NCBI GenBank assembly: GCA_033297075.1
Contig: MU858096.1
Span: 124,001-188,000 of the forward strand
DNA length: 64,000 nt
Origin: Rhypophila decipiens
Lineage: Eukaryota; Ascomycota; Sordariomycetes; Sordariales; Naviculisporaceae
Direction of reading: 5' to 3'
Part shown: piece after piece, positions 3,054 to 27,753 of the stretch
Layout: every line of letters begins with the position of its first letter
Position numbering within the stretch: the stretch's first letter is position 1
The notes under the pieces: generated by a model
Seen by the model: the letters and a program-made list of their open reading frames with translations, nothing else
Told to the model about the DNA's origin: nothing
Database searches by the model: none
Made by a program: the position numbers and the translations under genes

Positions 3054-4937
3054 TTAGTTGCCCTGGGCGACTCTGCCCAATCCCAAAACACACCAGTACG
3101 CCAGTTCCCGTTTTTCCTTGGCCTCCTTGTCCCTGGAGGAGCCGAGCTCTTCACCAACGGCATCCACCTCCCACTCAACGCGCACAAACATGGGTATCTC
3201 CAACAGGTCCTCATCCTCCCTGAGCGGACCCCTGTCCACCTCTCGCTTGACCTTGGGTTTCTCGCTTGCTTCTCCTTCCTCGTCCCCTTCCTCATCAGGG
3301 GCGGCCTCAAGCAGGTCAACTCTTAACGAAGCGGGGACGACCTCGACGATGACACTAACCCAGTTCCGGCCCCGTTCCCAGATCTTGCCGACTTCAGGTT
3401 GCTGGTGCGGGTTCCCCGACTCTTCGCCTTTGCGTTTCCGTCGGTTGTCGTCCTTGAGCGCCTCGTCCCAGACGTCCGTGTTGGCGTCGATCTCGAACTG
3501 AGGGCAGAGCACCGTAACTTTGCTGGCGAACCTGCCTGGCGTTCGGGACGGGGTCGCGAGAGATATCTTGACTGTCTCGAAAATGGGGTTTTTGAACGTC
3601 AGCATGTACTGGATTGGCCGCAACGGTTGGAGCAGAGCGTCGGGGTGCTGTATGAAGCCACTGCTTCCTGGCAGCACCAGAGGCCGGATCGTAATGCTGG
3701 GCACGTAGTTGCCAGCTATCAAGCGGATACGGAATCGGGTGGTTTGAATCTTGGCCTCGGGTTTGCTTATGATGTGGCGGCACACGGGACATCGCTTGGA
3801 GCGCTTGGTTCGCAGTAGGTAAGGGATGGGTCGGAGTTCGGATGTGAAGCGTGTCCGGCCGTGGAGATGGGGTTCTCCGAGGTTCGGGGGTTGGTTCTGC
3901 AGCTGCTCCGTGTCGATGGTGCCCTCCAGACCTTCTGACCGTAACTTTTCAATGGCTGCCGACTCGTCCAAGTTGGCGACTATGAGCCCCTCGTCCTCCT
4001 CTAGTGCCTCGCGCATGTTGCCTAACCGTGATTTGGACTTTTTGTCATGTAAACTGCCGCCACCTGTGTAGATACTCATGATACGCGAGAGCGAGGTTGG
4101 TGAAGAGAAGCCTAGTTCGCCCAGTCCCGAGAATCCACTCCCCCCCGAGGTCGAGCTGGAGAGCTGGGTTTGGTAGAAGTGCTTCAGATTCGCAAACTGT
4201 GTCTCCATGTCTATTCCATGTTCGTCAGCAATATGATCACTGCCTTGTGCTGACCCGCCACTCTGCACCAGCTCCTTGCGACGTTCCTTGCGTTCCTTGG
4301 CCGTGAGTCTAGTCGTCCCGCCATTTCTTTGTTTCGCGAGCTGCCCGTGTATTCCATTCGACTTGTCAAACTTGACGCCAGTCTCGGTGGAGCTCCAGTT
4401 GCAGTAGGAGCAGTTGAGGACGTAGGGGCCGCCGTGGTGTGCCGCGGAGTGATCTTGGGCACCGAGCAAATTTGGATCTGGTTGTGTCTCGAAGGAGGTG
4501 ACGGAAAGGGGCGCAATGCACACGGGGCATTGGAAACAGCTTCGGGTGCACCTGTATCGAAAACAGAGGAGGACTTGGTCAGTGTCTCGAGGGGCGAAAA
4601 GGGAGGGTGGGGTCAAGAGAGCGGTATCAACTCACCTATTGCCTTCACTCTTAATGTTGCTGCTGGGCACCTCGAACAAGCAGCTGGGACAGTAGAAAGT
4701 AGCTATTTCCTCGGCTATACATCTCGGACAGCGGATCTGATGACAGTCTTCGCAGTACAGCAGATACTCGAGCGGATAGAGGCTGTAATTGGCGCGGGGG
4801 GCTCGGGGATCAAATGCGCCATCCTCGTCCCCGAAATCTCGGTTCTTGGGACTTGATGGCGACCCATCACCGGGACGAAAGAGGGCGGAATCGGAGCAAG
4901 GGCATTGAAAGTACGTATAGGGAGTAATTGGCGACAT
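3054..4937 (-). CDS. DCTN4: Dynactin subunit p62 (DCTN4-type)
   Basis: Two exons, 4937-4636 and 4551-3054, are joined across an 84-nt intron (GTGAGT...TACAG) to give 599 residues. The N-terminal third carries the family's cysteine-rich zinc-binding region: CPCSDSALF, then a CEDC...CPRC...CPSC series, CFQCPVC just after the splice and NCSYCNW. A further CPVCRHII pair follows in the middle and a beta-rich C-terminal part ends the protein. p62 is part of the pointed-end complex of dynactin, the activator that lets cytoplasmic dynein carry nuclei and vesicles along microtubules. In Neurospora, loss of the orthologue (ro-2) gives curled 'ropy' hyphae. The start is fixed by MSPITPYTYFQCPC, typical of the family. 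The splice falls inside an Arg codon between two Cys motifs, and the zinc pattern stays continuous across it. Confidence 0.93.
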
Positions 4938-7346
4938 GGCGCATAGCAGTACAGCGTGGTATTGTGCGGTTAGTCCATAATACTGAATTGGTTTATTCTT
5001 TTATTTGGTTCTCGACTGGAGTGTTGAGGGGCAGTGACGGGAACCTAGAAACTTTCCTGGACGTTGCGATGCGGCGGGCAGCAGGGCAACGACGCGCCGA
5101 AACAGTCGCCCGCGCGGCAGGCAGCTGCGGCGGACGGGACTCTTACACACAGAACCCTAACCCTAAAATGCACCCCACCTCATACTTTAAGCTCGTTTGA
5201 GAACTGAAGGAGGTGTCTTGCACACCGCATCATTCACGCTGGAAAGTCTTCAACAGTGTCCGGCATCCAACTCCCTTGCAATCAAGGAGCCGATCCCAAT
5301 AACACAAAACATTCTCATCTTGGTCGGAAATAATGCAGTCAACAGAAATTTCCAACATTCGCCAGGCTGAGGAGCTTTGAGAGCTTACACAATGCAGATT
5401 TATGGACCACGGTAACAAACCATCCCGATGCCATATATTTGGAACCGAAGGACAGCATTTACGGAAGTTTGTTGTGACTCGTCACTCTGGTCAATCCCCC
5501 ATATACAATGAGATGCTTGAATGATTGTTAGTTCAGTTCTTTTAACAGGGGGTTGTACAACACTTCAAATGATCACTATAACTTACTTGAAAATACTATC
5601 AAAAAGCCGACAATTTGAGTATTTAATTAGTGTCTTCTCGGTTTTAGATACTTAACCTCTTTTCAGCGTAAAAATCTGTTATTTGGCTATAAAGCTGCAT
5701 CAAGTTCGGGGGAATGTATCCGTACTACGCTAACAATTAAACCAGGGGAGGAGTGTACATCTTCACATCGACCCGATGCACCCTACCTCGCTAAATTCCA
5801 CGGAGAGCCGCATTGATTTGCCGTCGACATGTCGTCCGGGCGTCGCACCGGAGCTTGCAAGGTCTCAGCGAACGGACCCTTGTCGATCGTCACATCCAGG
5901 CCACACGCCGAACGGTGGTGATCTCCGACTGTCTCAATGGGCGCCTCTCAATGGCTTCCTCACTTGTAAGAAGTTGCTCTTCTCTTCCGACAATCTTCAC
6001 CGGCCGGCTAGTCGCCTGCATCCCTCATATCTGCAGTGGAACGTGCCTACCATCTTTGACCGTTCTTCTTTGCTTTAGCTTCACAGCCATCATTTCACCT
6101 TTTTATTTCTTCCAATTTGGCCCTGCTGCTTGACAGCAAGCCGCCTGGAGTAAGCCAGAGATGAATCTCGAACATGGCGCCCATTCAGTAGTCATGTGGC
6201 ATGTGAGCAGTCCACCCAATAGCGAACTGACGATACATCCCATCATCCAGCCTGATGGTTGCAGACAAAGACCGAGAGCTGCAGCAATGAGCAATCCTCC
6301 GGTGCTCCGACCAGGGCTCAAGGAGTCAGCCTTTCACTCTATAGTCCTTCCTTGACGTGTTTGCTCTTCTCGTTTCCCAGCTGTTGGGTCCTACTTTGTG
6401 CTTTGCCTAGCACGTAAACTCTACCATCTTGTTTTCTTTATTTGTACTGAAAGAAATACACAACATGCTGGCCAGAGCCTCGCCCTGGAGCGCTGGAGCT
6501 CCAGCTGGATGTCACAAAAGCACATGCACACCAACAAAGCTTGACCCGGCCTCCCAAGCTAGTGCTGTAGCTGGGAACAGAACGCGGCTCTGGTTGGTTG
6601 CCAGGCCGATTTATGCAAGGATGGCCCCTCCATGAAGCGGGAACACCCCTGACAAACAGGGGATCCCCACTGTTTCCGGTTTATCATCATCAGCTTGCCT
6701 TACAGAGGCATGCAGGTGTGATAAGCCGTCGTGCCACAGCATCTCGACAGCACGACAATGAAGAAGAGAAATGCATTTCGGAATCACAGAGTTGTGGACA
6801 AAGATGAGAAATCGGTATTACCCTACTAGGGCTTCTGGCAATGGAGCAGAGATGCTTGCCATTGCTCCCAGTCATATAGCGGGCTCTAGGCCCTTTGACA
6901 GTCGAGCTGCTTTTTTCTACGTTTTTCCTAATCTCCTTAGACCACGGGTGGTTCTCTCCTCAGGTTCCAGCTTTGCACAACCAGTCACTGCAGTCCACTT
7001 CGACCATCCATAACCTCACCAACATGCCATCTGTGCACTACCTCTGTTGAGGTGGCTTCACGTGAAGATTCCAAGTCCAACGCTCTTGCTGAATCGTTTG
7101 CTTGAACGGCTCGATTGGAGTGTCTTCGGACTGGTCAGGGACGTACTTTTTTGATCTCTAACACTCTAACGGTCTGCGGCTTCTGCTTCTTTTCTACGTT
7201 GGGCCGCGGCCAGTGTCCCGAGCTAACCAGTCGGCACATTTGGTGTTATCCCGATCATCTGGACGTAACGTGCGCCGTCAAACCTTTTTTCTTGTATTGG
7301 ACACTTGACGACTTCGGCAACAGACTGGACGACCATATATCCCCTC
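4938..7346. other. 2.4-kb intergenic region
   Basis: This holds the dynactin promoter, including the double telobox, and the promoter and leader of the DUF8004-like gene. The part around 5.45-5.75 kb is visibly AT-richer. Open frames here are short, overlap on both strands and resemble no family I know. I see no RNA gene or repeat. Confidence 0.6.
5153..5167. promoter_or_regulatory. Double telomere-repeat (telobox) motif upstream of dynactin p62
   Basis: AACCCTAACCCTAAA, two consecutive copies of the fungal telomere hexamer, occurs about 216 bp upstream of the dynactin start. It may be a binding site for a TRF/Myb-type factor or a tiny interstitial telomeric trace. A two-copy run is short enough to arise by chance, but a single-copy relative also lies before eS7 in this window. 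Confidence 0.35.
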
Positions 7347-22600: not shown

Positions 22601-23988
22601 CGGGAAACAACAAGACCGAACCCAAGTCGATTCCGAGGGCGGTTGTGGTGGTCGTGGTGCTTGGAGTGGCACGCGTAAATTACAATCTCATGTTTATAGT
22701 GGGAGCCTGGGAGCCTCTGTGCTCGAAAGTATGGCTGCAGGCCAGGTTGCCGGCTGGTATACGAGGGGCAGCTGTGTGCAGCTGTGCACCAGCCACCGCA
22801 CCCTTTCGTTTGGGTGGCTTTAGTGGAGCCCGAGGTTGTCGGGCCCGTTCCCGTGCGTCCATGCAAGCGGTCGATCACGTGGATCTGCTCCACACTTTCA
22901 AGGCACCGAGATTCAGAATTTCGAGATTCGCGCAGTGGGTCCGTTGCTGTCCATTGTGTCCAATCGCTGGCAAGCCCGCCCAACATCCAGGCAGCAGCAT
23001 TTGCACCCACCCCACCTGCAGGCCAATGCATGTGCTCCGCCAGCAGCCGCCTGAGTTTCCATCTTCCTTGTCTGTGTCGTGGGACAGTCCTTCGATACTC
23101 CGTAGGCACCGAGATAACCAACAGCGATGCCCAAGCCCGAGACCACTTTTTTTGTGAAGCGTCGATTACAGTGGCGTTGTATCTGCTTCCCATGTCATCG
23201 TGATGGCTTCTTGGATTTCTCATCCATCGACCAGCAGCATCCGTACTTTGTACTTATCGAGTGCCGAGAACAGCGTGCATCCCGTCCCGTTTCCCTGACC
23301 AGCTCGAGTCGTCCCATGTCTATTTCTGGCGCCGGAGAGGTACCGGTAGCTTGTTCGATCTGAGCCCATCTTGGTACCACTTGCGAATATCGACCTCGAC
23401 AGACACCTGCAACATATGCTCTCTTTTGGCCCGATGTCGACAGACAGTCAGACACTCCGTCCACCCACCAAGTGAGCGGGCAACAAGCAGCTCGACCGCC
23501 ACCAGATCAAGAGCCCATTATCTCCGAGGTCTAGCTGGGGCTTATTGTACCAGCACCAGCACGACACGCCGACACCTCAGCCATATCAACCAGAAACAGA
23601 GGTGACAGCGCCAGTGGCAGCGCCATTATCTCCTCTCCCAGTTGCTTCTGCAGTTGCCTCTGTTTGGTGTGAACCGCCTCATTCTTTGCGTGGGCATTGC
23701 AACCCATTTTCGTGGGCGCGCATACTCCATAGCTTGGGCCATCCATTCTGGTCTTGGCCATTGCTGGACATGTATTGATCTTCTGCCTATCCCCTTCGCA
23801 GTTGTCAGGGCGTTTGCTTCTATGTTCCGGAGTGGCATCTTGTCCTTAGCGGTCCTCCCAGTCTTAGAGGATACCAACAACAGTCCTCATACTAGACTGG
23901 CAAGAGTCTTGCACGAGTCTTCAAAGACACTGTCAACATCAACACCCCTTATCCAGGTGCTCTTTCCCAGGCACCTCAAGTCTCCAGG
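19695..23988. other. 4.3-kb gene-poor region
   Basis: Both strands were read. The longest frames (22537-23157 on + and 22594-23223 on -) overlap each other, lack recognisable motifs and have no credible splice neighbours. The last 400 bases before 23989 are pyrimidine-rich and likely form the promoter and leader of the HeLo-like gene. No tRNA, transposase remnant or obvious repeat was found. It could contain decayed mobile DNA too diverged to see by eye. Confidence 0.5.
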
Positions 23989-26900
23989 ATGGAGTCCTAT
24001 CTTCCCATGGGCGCCATTGGTGTCCAGAGACGGCTGAGCCGTCTCTACAACGACACCAAAAAGTCGTCCGACTTTGTCAAAGAACCCGTTGTCCAGCACT
24101 CGGAAGCCGACCCTGAGATCAAATCTCTCCACCGCAAACTCCGGATCCAGAAAGACCGCTTGACCAGTTGGGGTCTCGAATGGTCAGACCCTAACCAGTC
24201 GGCCGAGGTCCTCATCGATTCCTCCCTCTCCAAGGCTGGCCTCAGTGAGCTGGTCGGCAGTATCATGTCGACCATTAAGGATATCCTGGCTGAGGCCGAG
24301 CCGTTATGGAACAGCTCTCGGAGGCTGGCTGGCGAGCGGGTGGATCCCGAACCTACGCCGAAAAGGGGGGAGAAAATACAGCTGGTTGTTTGGGACAAGA
24401 ATCGCTTCGAAGACCTCGTGCGTGATCTCACAACCTCCATCGACACGCTCTACGACCTGTCCCGGACCAGATCCTCTTATGCGCAACCTTCGCCGCTGGC
24501 TCTCCGAGAGAGGCTCACCAAGACCACCTCCTCGACCGAAGACCTCCGCCCTTTTGAGTCTTCGAGAATACAGACTCCCCAGCACATCGACCCGACGACC
24601 CTGACGAATCTGCGGACGATGCAAGCGGAACCGATGACCGAGACGACCGGGCAGGACACGCGGCGGGAGATCGTCTTCATGAACAAGCAGGCGTACGCCG
24701 ACCTGATGCAACGCTCCGGGGCGGGGGCACAGAAGCAGCCTTATGCCCCCCTGCTGCTGGAGTATGCAACGTTCGACTCGATCTACTCCTTGACAGGAAT
24801 ATCACCGCCCATGGCTCGCTTCGAGAAGCTCTCTGCCGGCCTTCAGAGCGAGCCTCAACGATCCCCAGGCTCATGGACTGGTCTGCCGCGACTGTTGGGC
24901 TATTTCGAGGATATGGAGAACTCTAGGTTCGGCTTGGTCTATCGGTTTCCTCGCACCTTCAACCCTGTCTCGTTTGAGCATCTCACGCAGAACCCACTCT
25001 ACAACCTCTGCTCTCTTGCAGACTTGCTGGCTCGCCCCGACTTTGAGCCAAAGCTGGAGGCCAAGTTCAGGTTGGCAGCAAACCTGGCCAACACTGTCTT
25101 TGACATGCATGCAAGGGGCATCACACACAGCAATCTCGTATCTGATAATGTCTCTTTTTGCAACGCAGTGGGCACTGATCCGGAGGTCAGTGGTGTGACA
25201 ATGGGCGAAGTCGACATCCGAAGACCCCTTATCTCGGCTTTTGATCTCTTTTGGGACCCGCAAACACAGGATGCTGCAACTCCCTTTTCCCTCTATCGAC
25301 ATCCCCTCGACCCTAGAAATAGCCTCCAGTCTCCACTGGCCGCAAAAGCCGATTCCAAGACATTCGACCTGTACTCTCTCGCCATGATTCTCCTTTCGGT
25401 GGGTCTTTGGAACAAGCTCGAGAATATTGTTACCAATCCATCACAGCCCGTCATATCCGAGGCCGTGCTCGACCAGCTTGCTATCAGGTGTGGCACTCTT
25501 TACATGAAGGCGGTACAAACGTGCTGGAACGCTGTGGATCAGGAGCTAGCTGGCGTGCACACGGCGGAACGGATAGTGTCACACGTGCACCTGAAAGCAA
25601 GCCGCTATCTGGAGGCGTGTTGTATCATTGACGGAGTGAGCAATCTGGAGGAGAGATTAGGAGACGATCTGGGCGAAACACGGCCTGAAGCAGCGAGCAT
25701 CTCGTCGCTTGCCGGTCCTTCGGGGGCTGGGAAATCCGAAAAGGCTCGAGCCGCCACACCGCCAGCTGCAAGGAACGAAAGTGACATTCCTTCAACGACT
25801 CCAGCTCCAGCAGTGCAACAGGTGGAGCCACAGGTCGAGACTCCAGGTAAGAAAGCTCCATCCAAAGTTGGGACGAAAGCTGTGGCGAAGATGGGATGGA
25901 TTCAAGGGAGCGAAATAAAGACAGGATGAAGAAGTCGCTAACTTTCAGCAGTAACTATTCCGGAAGATGCGAAACAACGCTCAGCCAAAATGCGACTTTA
26001 CCCCCAAGTCAAGTTATCGCCAGACATTGTTGACCAATGGAACCTGGTCGTGATGCCCCAAATAAATTCGGCATTGCGTCCTTTTTATCGAAAAAACCCC
26101 GAGTCGGTCGAAATCTCGCTCGAGTCGATCGGCGAGTCTGCACAAAAGACAAAGCCAACTGTTCTGGTAGTTTGCACGTCAGTTGGAAAGGTTAGGGCAA
26201 TACTGAAGAAACGACTGGGTGCCCTTTTCGAGGGTGCTACCGGGTTTGGCCTCAAGGTCTGCAGTGGCCAGGTGCTGCGTTCGAGGAACCAGCAACCGAG
26301 CCGAAGCATGGCAGGCGGCGAGAGTGATGGTGATGACGACACAGCCGCCAACCCTGGGTATCAAGAACGACCGGGAAACGGGGCTAGTATCGGTGCCTGG
26401 GTTAATGATCGGCACCTGCCTCCCGTGAGCTTGGGAGGTATAATCATGGTGGATGATAAGCTATATGGAATGACGGTCCACCACATGCTGGACGATCCCG
26501 ATCAAAAGGAGACCACGCTGGAGCTGACCGAAGGAGCGACGCGCAGTATGGCGGGCATGGCGGGCGTCCAGGATCTCGCGGCGTGGTATGCCCAGCAATA
26601 CCAGACTCCGGAATCTGACATGGACCCCGACAGCAGTGGGACCGAAGACTTTGCTTGCGAGTTTTCAGATTCGGAATCGGACGCCTTTTCTGAATCTGCC
26701 ATTACGAGCGACGATTCCGACGACGAAAGCGAGAGGGACGATGAATCGGAGATCGGGGACATCCCTGGGATTGAGCCTGGCTGCGGAGAGGGTTATGTTA
26801 TTACGCAGCCTGCTTTGGATGATGTTCCCGAGGAATTTTATCCTTCCCCGGAGACACAGGACGAAGACCATTTGGATTCGTACAGTCTTGGTGAGATGTA

Positions 26901-27753
26901 TGCTTCGAGCGGTATCCGCAGGCGTAACGAGTACGGCCTTGTCCATGAGATCGACTGGGCGCTTTTCGAGTTCCGGGATGATCGACAGCCGTGCGAGAAC
27001 CTCATTCCACGGGCGCAAACACAACCCGACCAGTCAGCGTCAGGATCAGGGGCAGGCGCAACTGTAATCCATCCTGCTTCAGTTGCTCCATGGAAAACTC
27101 TGCCAGGTCTTGAGGTTCAATGCATGGCACGGACCAGTGGACTGCAAACCGGGCTGATCCTTCCTGCTCTCAACTCGGTGAAGTTATATGGCCGAGTTTC
27201 ACCCAGCCATACATATCAGGTGACGGGGGCACCGGCAGCAAGCTCGGGAGTGAATGCTGATGGAAGCAGGGGACGCCGTCTTCCAATGGGCGTTCCGGGA
27301 GACAGCGGGGCGTGGATCGTCGATCGTGACCATGGTCAAGTTTGTGGTCATGTCCTAGCATGGAGCGCACGAAAGCGTGTGGCCTATATATGCCCAATGG
27401 ACGTGTTGCTCATTGATATCGCAGAAACTCTCGAAGCAAGCGAAATTCGCTTGCCAGGAGGCGAAGTTGTCGTGAGCACCTTGACCCGAACGAAAAGAGC
27501 AAGTCGGGCGATAGCGTTCGGCCATGGAGGCGAATCACCAATCCTACCGCAGGTCGGCCGCCGGCAGAGCAGGCGCTCACAGCTTCACGGCCAGAGAGAC
27601 TCCTTTCTGGCTGGTTCAGAGACTGCAGTTGATGATGACGATGGTGATGATTCTTATGACGAGGCAGTTGAGGTGGTGGAACTGGCGAGGAAGTTGAAGC
27701 AGGCTGAAATAGAGAGTAAGATACCCGTGGAAATGGACAAGTGGGTGGCATGA
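23989..27753 (+). CDS. HeLo-like / pseudokinase / trypsin-like protease fusion protein
   Basis: Exon 1 is 23989-25846 and exon 2 is 25949-27753, giving about 1220 residues. The 102-nt intron has a GTAAGA donor, a GCTAAC branch point and a TTTCAG acceptor, and the join is in phase, so two long frames become one. Residues about 5-115 resemble HeLo-type helical domains (a helical segment, then [19 protein letters not shown]). Residues about 235-560 are kinase-like but degenerate: the HRD region reads [14 protein letters not shown] (374-387) and the DFG position reads AFD (417-419), so catalysis is unlikely. After a Pro/Ala-rich linker and a conserved [15 protein letters not shown] block, a chymotrypsin-fold protease follows with a plausible triad of His797/798 (MTVHH), Asp955 (EIDWALFEF) and Ser1072 (GDSGAW). 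HeLo domains are membrane-targeting death effectors in fungal incompatibility; the arrangement recalls MLKL plus a protease. Two separate genes or an alternatively spliced one remain possible. Confidence 0.72.
25847..25948 (+). other. Intron joining the pseudokinase and protease halves, with NAGNAG acceptor
   Basis: Donor GTAAGA at 25847, branch point GCTAAC at 25937-25942 and acceptor TTTCAG ending at 25948, with a second CAG directly after it ending at 25951. Either acceptor keeps the frame, differing by one residue. If the intron is retained, translation stops at 25927-25929 after about 27 extra codons, leaving only the HeLo-like and pseudokinase modules. The sequence motifs are seen; isoform use is inferred. 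Confidence 0.7.

Follow-up and report, generated by a model that had tools for sequence, protein, structure and literature searches.

A fungal HeLo-pseudokinase protein fused to a NAL1-like protease: a possible signalling enzyme and not a death effector

What is the role of a protein in which the parts of a necroptosis-like death effector are tied, in one chain, to a protease? The question is raised by a gene of the Sordariales fungus Rhypophila decipiens (45.7-Mb genome), located at positions 23989-27753 of the window, that is, the whole 64,000-nucleotide stretch that was analysed (contig MU858096.1, positions 124,001 to 188,000). The original prediction, made from the DNA letters, described a HeLo-like domain, a pseudokinase and a trypsin-like protease in a single polypeptide, and suggested a death effector cleaved or licensed by its own protease. 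The layout, the protease and the single chain have held, and no prior description was found in the papers searched; the death effector is not supported. The family is widely conserved in fungi and combines predicted folds of these three kinds, lost kinase motifs and a protease triad that is complete in sequence with the absence of the hydrophobic helix used in killing, and its members may be signalling proteases rather than killers.

The two reading frames of the gene (23896-25929 and 25942-27753) are joined by an intron of 102 or 105 bases. Exon 1 (23989-25846, plus strand, as are all features of the gene) encodes residues 1-619, ends one base into the following codon, and comprises the HeLo-like bundle and the pseudokinase. 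The intron (25847-25948, 102 bases) has GTAAGA as its donor and CTAAC as a branch-point-like motif, and its acceptor is a tandem CAGCAG whose second CAG ends at 25951. Exon 2 (25949-27753, stop codon at 27751-27753) encodes the NAL1-like protease with its N-terminal alpha/beta domain, and then a low-confidence tail. The spliced protein has 1220 aa with the first acceptor and 1219 aa with the second. Since the frames in the window join only after removal of the intron, two adjacent genes could have been wrongly joined, but this is extremely improbable: a database record from Rhypophila decipiens (P0240, 1219 aa), though perhaps itself only predicted, equals the protein spliced at the second acceptor letter for letter, the span from pseudokinase to protease occurs in single database proteins (P0210, P0230, P0222, P0211), and the 117 relatives listed are 1082-1381 aa long. 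A gene-prediction artefact is rejected because of the one-chain record and the single proteins that span both parts, and the splicing of both frames into one chain, as first proposed, is borne out. Each exon has one full match in its own genome, the other matches being weak; the gene is single copy. The tandem acceptor (window 25946-25951) makes two isoforms, one residue apart, possible.

The HeLo domain (approximately residues 1-165; 23989-24483) matches PF14479 with an E value of 2.1e-7 and 31.4 bits, above the curated cut-off of 23.2. In the genome scan with this profile only positions 32-93 and 147-182 were matched, and positions 1-31 were unmatched. The profile of the fusion family also aligns with a set of eight HeLo proteins encoded in this genome (one hhalign comparison, E 7e-7, 139 columns), and the structure model predicts four long helices (residues 8-26, 42-65, 86-113 and 137-164), in line with the helical N-terminus originally proposed.

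What the domain lacks is the first element of its relatives. An N-terminal helix with transmembrane propensity is key to the activity of HeLo and HELL domains (PMC10197012). To evaluate it, the N-termini of 115 of the 117 newly listed relatives (those of at least 1100 aa) were compared with those of ten HeLo proteins of the Rhypophila decipiens genome, namely C87, C139 and eight whose start methionine was placed by eye. The highest windowed hydropathy is at most 0.51 in the 115 relatives vs 1.18-1.97 in the ten proteins, all of which have a hydrophobic N-terminal helix (10/10); none of the 115 reaches the lowest of these values, the start being judgeable in 113, as P0280 begins downstream of the HeLo domain and the start of P0327 is shortened, both perhaps faults of gene models. 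Instead of hydrophobic, the N-terminus of the fusion family is basic, with a median charge of +3 in 30 residues.

The pseudokinase (approximately residues 195-560; 24571-25668) has Glu258, Asn382 and Ala417 at the catalytic places, which were assigned by eye from a profile alignment. The beta3 lysine is replaced by glutamate in 115/115 relatives, the aspartate of HRD is retained in only 3/115, and that of DFG in 0/115, where serine is the most common residue. A search with the model found the kinase fold, and the pseudokinase profile matches the HeLo-PKL proteins of the same genome with E 5.5e-30; other matches are weak (DUF7580, E 0.01, below cut-off; CLK1, E 0.24, a weak kinase trace). Matches of exon 1 to TGF-beta (E 0.02 to 1.3) were taken as chance. 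Numerous kinases score equally well in the fold searches, and MLKL and HET-S are not among the matches listed, but because the kinase part fills the lists of fold matches their non-appearance excludes nothing. Both the degenerate pseudokinase and the MLKL-like order of HeLo and pseudokinase are thus confirmed, by the PF14479 match, the kinase fold and the loss of the three catalytic residues. MLKL likewise has a helical bundle followed by a pseudokinase, a likeness of layout; it is not known to carry a protease, and its bundle damages membranes by experiment. Fungal HeLo/HELL-pseudokinase proteins share the HeLo domain and the degenerate kinase domain with the fusion protein and differ in their hydrophobic N-terminal helix, seen in five of the six such genes of this genome (in the sixth, C209, no start was found in frame).

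The third module consists of an alpha/beta domain ahead of the protease barrels (approximately exon-2 residues 12-110; 25984-26280), which lies within the match to rice NAL1 (NARROW LEAF 1, a trypsin-like serine protease), and of a chymotrypsin-fold core identified by fold match (exon-2 residues 139-504; 26365-27462). The second histidine of a His-His pair (26479-26484) is the likely catalytic one (His798 in the 1220-aa numbering); an acidic insertion, mostly of low confidence, follows at 26497-26760, and the alignment of relatives identifies Asp955 (26953-26955) and Ser1072 (27304-27306, in GDSG). The triad is complete in sequence in 115/115 relatives and, in another comparison, in 50/50, in agreement with the predicted protease with His, Asp and Ser in order. 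No Pfam family matched the protease region, and its type was settled by the fold search of the exon-2 model, which matched both the chymotrypsin fold and the N-terminal domain of NAL1. An NCBIfam adhesin match of this region (E 0.42) was taken as chance. No convincing sequence match of the protease exon was found in the PDB, and NAL1 chains appeared neither in the single-sequence search (E up to 5) nor in the profile search (E up to 10). Given this lack of sequence similarity, the protease is called NAL1-like by fold and is not assigned to the NAL1 family; the two share 17% identity over aligned residues, and the large acidic insertion is present only in the fusion protein. Rice NAL1 is a plant protein that is not known to carry fused HeLo and pseudokinase parts. 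In proteases of this fold the residue six before the catalytic serine sets the cleavage specificity, and because it is Met or Leu in 113/115 relatives, trypsin-type (Lys/Arg) cleavage is doubtful.

The search with the protease region returned 1175 matching proteins, and the distribution, read from the best 120 of the 1175, covers Sordariomycetes and Leotiomycetes. Among the matches listed are the genera Neurospora (with a close relative in Neurospora crassa), Podospora, Cryphonectria, Diaporthe, Cytospora, Colletotrichum, Fusarium, Trichoderma, Metarhizium, Hypoxylon and Biscogniauxia. A precomputed HeLo annotation is present in 101 of these 120 (counted by eye). The protease exon also has a relative in Helotiales (P0237). 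All three of the HeLo start motif, HHML and GDSG are carried by 111/115 relatives, the exceptions being P0320 and P0350 (variant start motif), P0327 (shortened start) and P0280 (none). The three-part order is thus real, and it recurs in many fungi, so it is not peculiar to Rhypophila decipiens. In six species of other genera, identity is 66-83% in the HeLo domain, 59-77% in the pseudokinase and 64-67% in the protease, and only 12-25% in the linker between pseudokinase and protease. Such HeLo identity is unlike what would be expected of a fast-evolving incompatibility gene.

These observations bear directly on the self-licensed death effector, in which the protease, once the pseudokinase is activated, would cleave its own chain and the freed HeLo bundle would attack the membrane. 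The proposal draws on the MLKL-like layout, on the active-site-complete protease in the same chain and on the use of proteolysis by fungal gasdermin systems (PMC10197012). It is nevertheless unlikely: the hydrophobic helix is missing in 113/113 relatives with a judgeable start, conservation is strong, and no recognised death gene was found among the neighbouring frames scanned. The window has 22 long frames, and that scan covered 10 of them (two of the other 12 are the exons of the fusion gene); five of the 10 had a family match, and none matched an NLR, HET-domain, gasdermin or other HeLo family. With its linker only 12-25% identical, the pseudokinase-protease junction holds no conserved self-cleavage site; self-cleavage could still occur nearer the HeLo domain, in a more conserved stretch discussed below.

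The interpretation favoured here is that of an intracellular signalling protease, conserved among fungi, whose control part is a re-used HeLo-pseudokinase module. Its grounds are conservation, single copy, absence of any recognised death gene from the neighbouring frames scanned, intact triad and missing killing helix; it comes close to an even chance. The HeLo-derived four-helix bundle would dock or oligomerise the protein, its basic first helix perhaps contacting an anionic membrane; the pseudokinase would sense phosphorylation or a ligand and serve as an allosteric switch, and the NAL1-type serine protease would be the output, cutting other proteins. Necroptosis-type parts would thereby be re-used to control proteolysis instead of pore-making. 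The boldest proposal is put forward tentatively: a conserved fungal switch whose necroptosis-type sensor, helical bundle plus pseudokinase, drives the built-in protease, either in place of a membrane pore or ahead of one. If true, necroptosis-like parts and the proteolytic logic of pyroptosis would be united in a single polypeptide, as a protease under pseudokinase control.

Several points weigh against the signalling protease. The match to NAL1 is one of predicted fold only, and the HeLo helices were read within a larger model rather than from the domain folded and searched alone. Basic residues may also bring a bundle to the membrane, by analogy with MLKL, which reportedly binds phosphatidylinositol phosphates, and membrane damage may therefore occur even where the hydrophobic helix is missing. 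The stretch at approximately residues 187-208, between HeLo domain and pseudokinase, is fairly conserved, and a cut may occur there, near the HeLo domain; on both accounts the self-licensed killer keeps some probability. Finally, in the available text of the cell-death reviews, cell death is the sole HeLo function described (PMC12881547; PMC10197012).

A different possibility is that a separate death effector, be it a gasdermin or a HeLo protein encoded elsewhere, is the target of the protease, which would act in trans, with the HeLo domain of the fusion only an adaptor. There would be candidates, with twelve other loci of the genome above the PF14479 cut-off (by our count), and some fungal gasdermin-controlling proteases carry a fused kinase-like domain; however, known gasdermin-protease pathways are often clustered and use S8 or CHAT proteases (PMC12881547), while here the protease type differs and no gasdermin or other HeLo gene was recognised among the 10 neighbouring frames scanned. 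This makes action in trans rather improbable.

One special case of the signalling protease would have a transcriptional target: a regulator of development or nutrient responses that works on transcription factors or corepressors. Besides the NAL1 fold match, a protease relative in the same genome (C284) weakly matches Peptidase_S64 (E 7e-4, below cut-off), which we take to be the Ssy5 family; yeast Ssy5 is chymotrypsin-like and acts on transcription factors. Maize NAL1 degrades a TOPLESS-like corepressor (PMC12915138), and for this reason a transcriptional regulator is a reasonable first guess for the substrate, although the similarity to NAL1 is structural only; as a reading of its own, the regulator has a low probability.

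How new is the arrangement? The original prediction had also compared it in logic with the Podospora pair HET-Q1/HET-Q2, but the protease of that pair is of the subtilisin type, and the likeness goes no further than a link between a protease and cell death, since layout and protease type both differ. That pair consists of a gasdermin and a separate serine protease (PMC10197012), and fungal death pathways employ S8 and CHAT proteases, some of them fused to kinase-like domains (PMC12881547); the fusion protease is NAL1-like. The HeLo/HELL plus kinase or pseudokinase layout is already known (PMC12881547), and its fusion to a NAL1-type protease appears to be new: no published description was found in the literature searched, mostly freely readable papers, as the original prediction had supposed. 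The word "trypsin" is absent from the main texts of PMC12881547, PMC10197012, PMC9815663 and PMC12258605; "pseudokinase" appears in PMC4859500 only in a reference title; the available text of PMC11106486 cites rice corepressor work and no fungal NAL1; and the Glomeromycotina study reports, in its available text, a HeLo domain on a transporter homolog and MLKL homologs, not this architecture (PMC8778642). With this family one can ask directly whether a HeLo-pseudokinase module is able to govern an output other than pore formation, and fungal NAL1-like proteases would gain a context.

The genome holds further relatives of the separate parts. Three other loci match the protease profile, with no PKL-family match found in their protease frames: C284 (L038:960-2938, minus strand); C77 (L039:3840-5978, minus strand), with GHSG and approximately 1 kb from a kinase frame that weakly matches a PKL profile (E 5e-4); and C65 (L040:4162-6153, plus strand), where GDCG at the GDSG place suggests a cysteine nucleophile on a chymotrypsin-type fold. 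Single frames at C6, C62 and C128 (L015, L018, L019) carry a more canonical kinase domain and then a PKL domain in tandem; the genome HeLo scan gave no match on these contigs. HeLo and PKL matches in one frame are found in six other genes (C2, C87, C117, C139, C167, C209), the HeLo match of C139 being below cut-off. The protease profile matched nothing in the scanned surroundings of C87 and C139; for C2, C117, C167 and C209, where that scan was not made, the genome-wide listing has no protease match on the contigs. At C87 (L041: 3157-5061, minus strand, and 5633-7066, plus strand) and C139 (L043: 2824-3966, minus strand, and 4287-6089, plus strand) the HeLo-pseudokinase gene and a kinase gene with intact Lys, HGD and DFG motifs lie head to head. 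By a rough hand estimate, approximately 0.2 such neighbours would be expected by chance among the six genes, and from their sequences the two could possibly be RIPK3-MLKL-like gene pairs.
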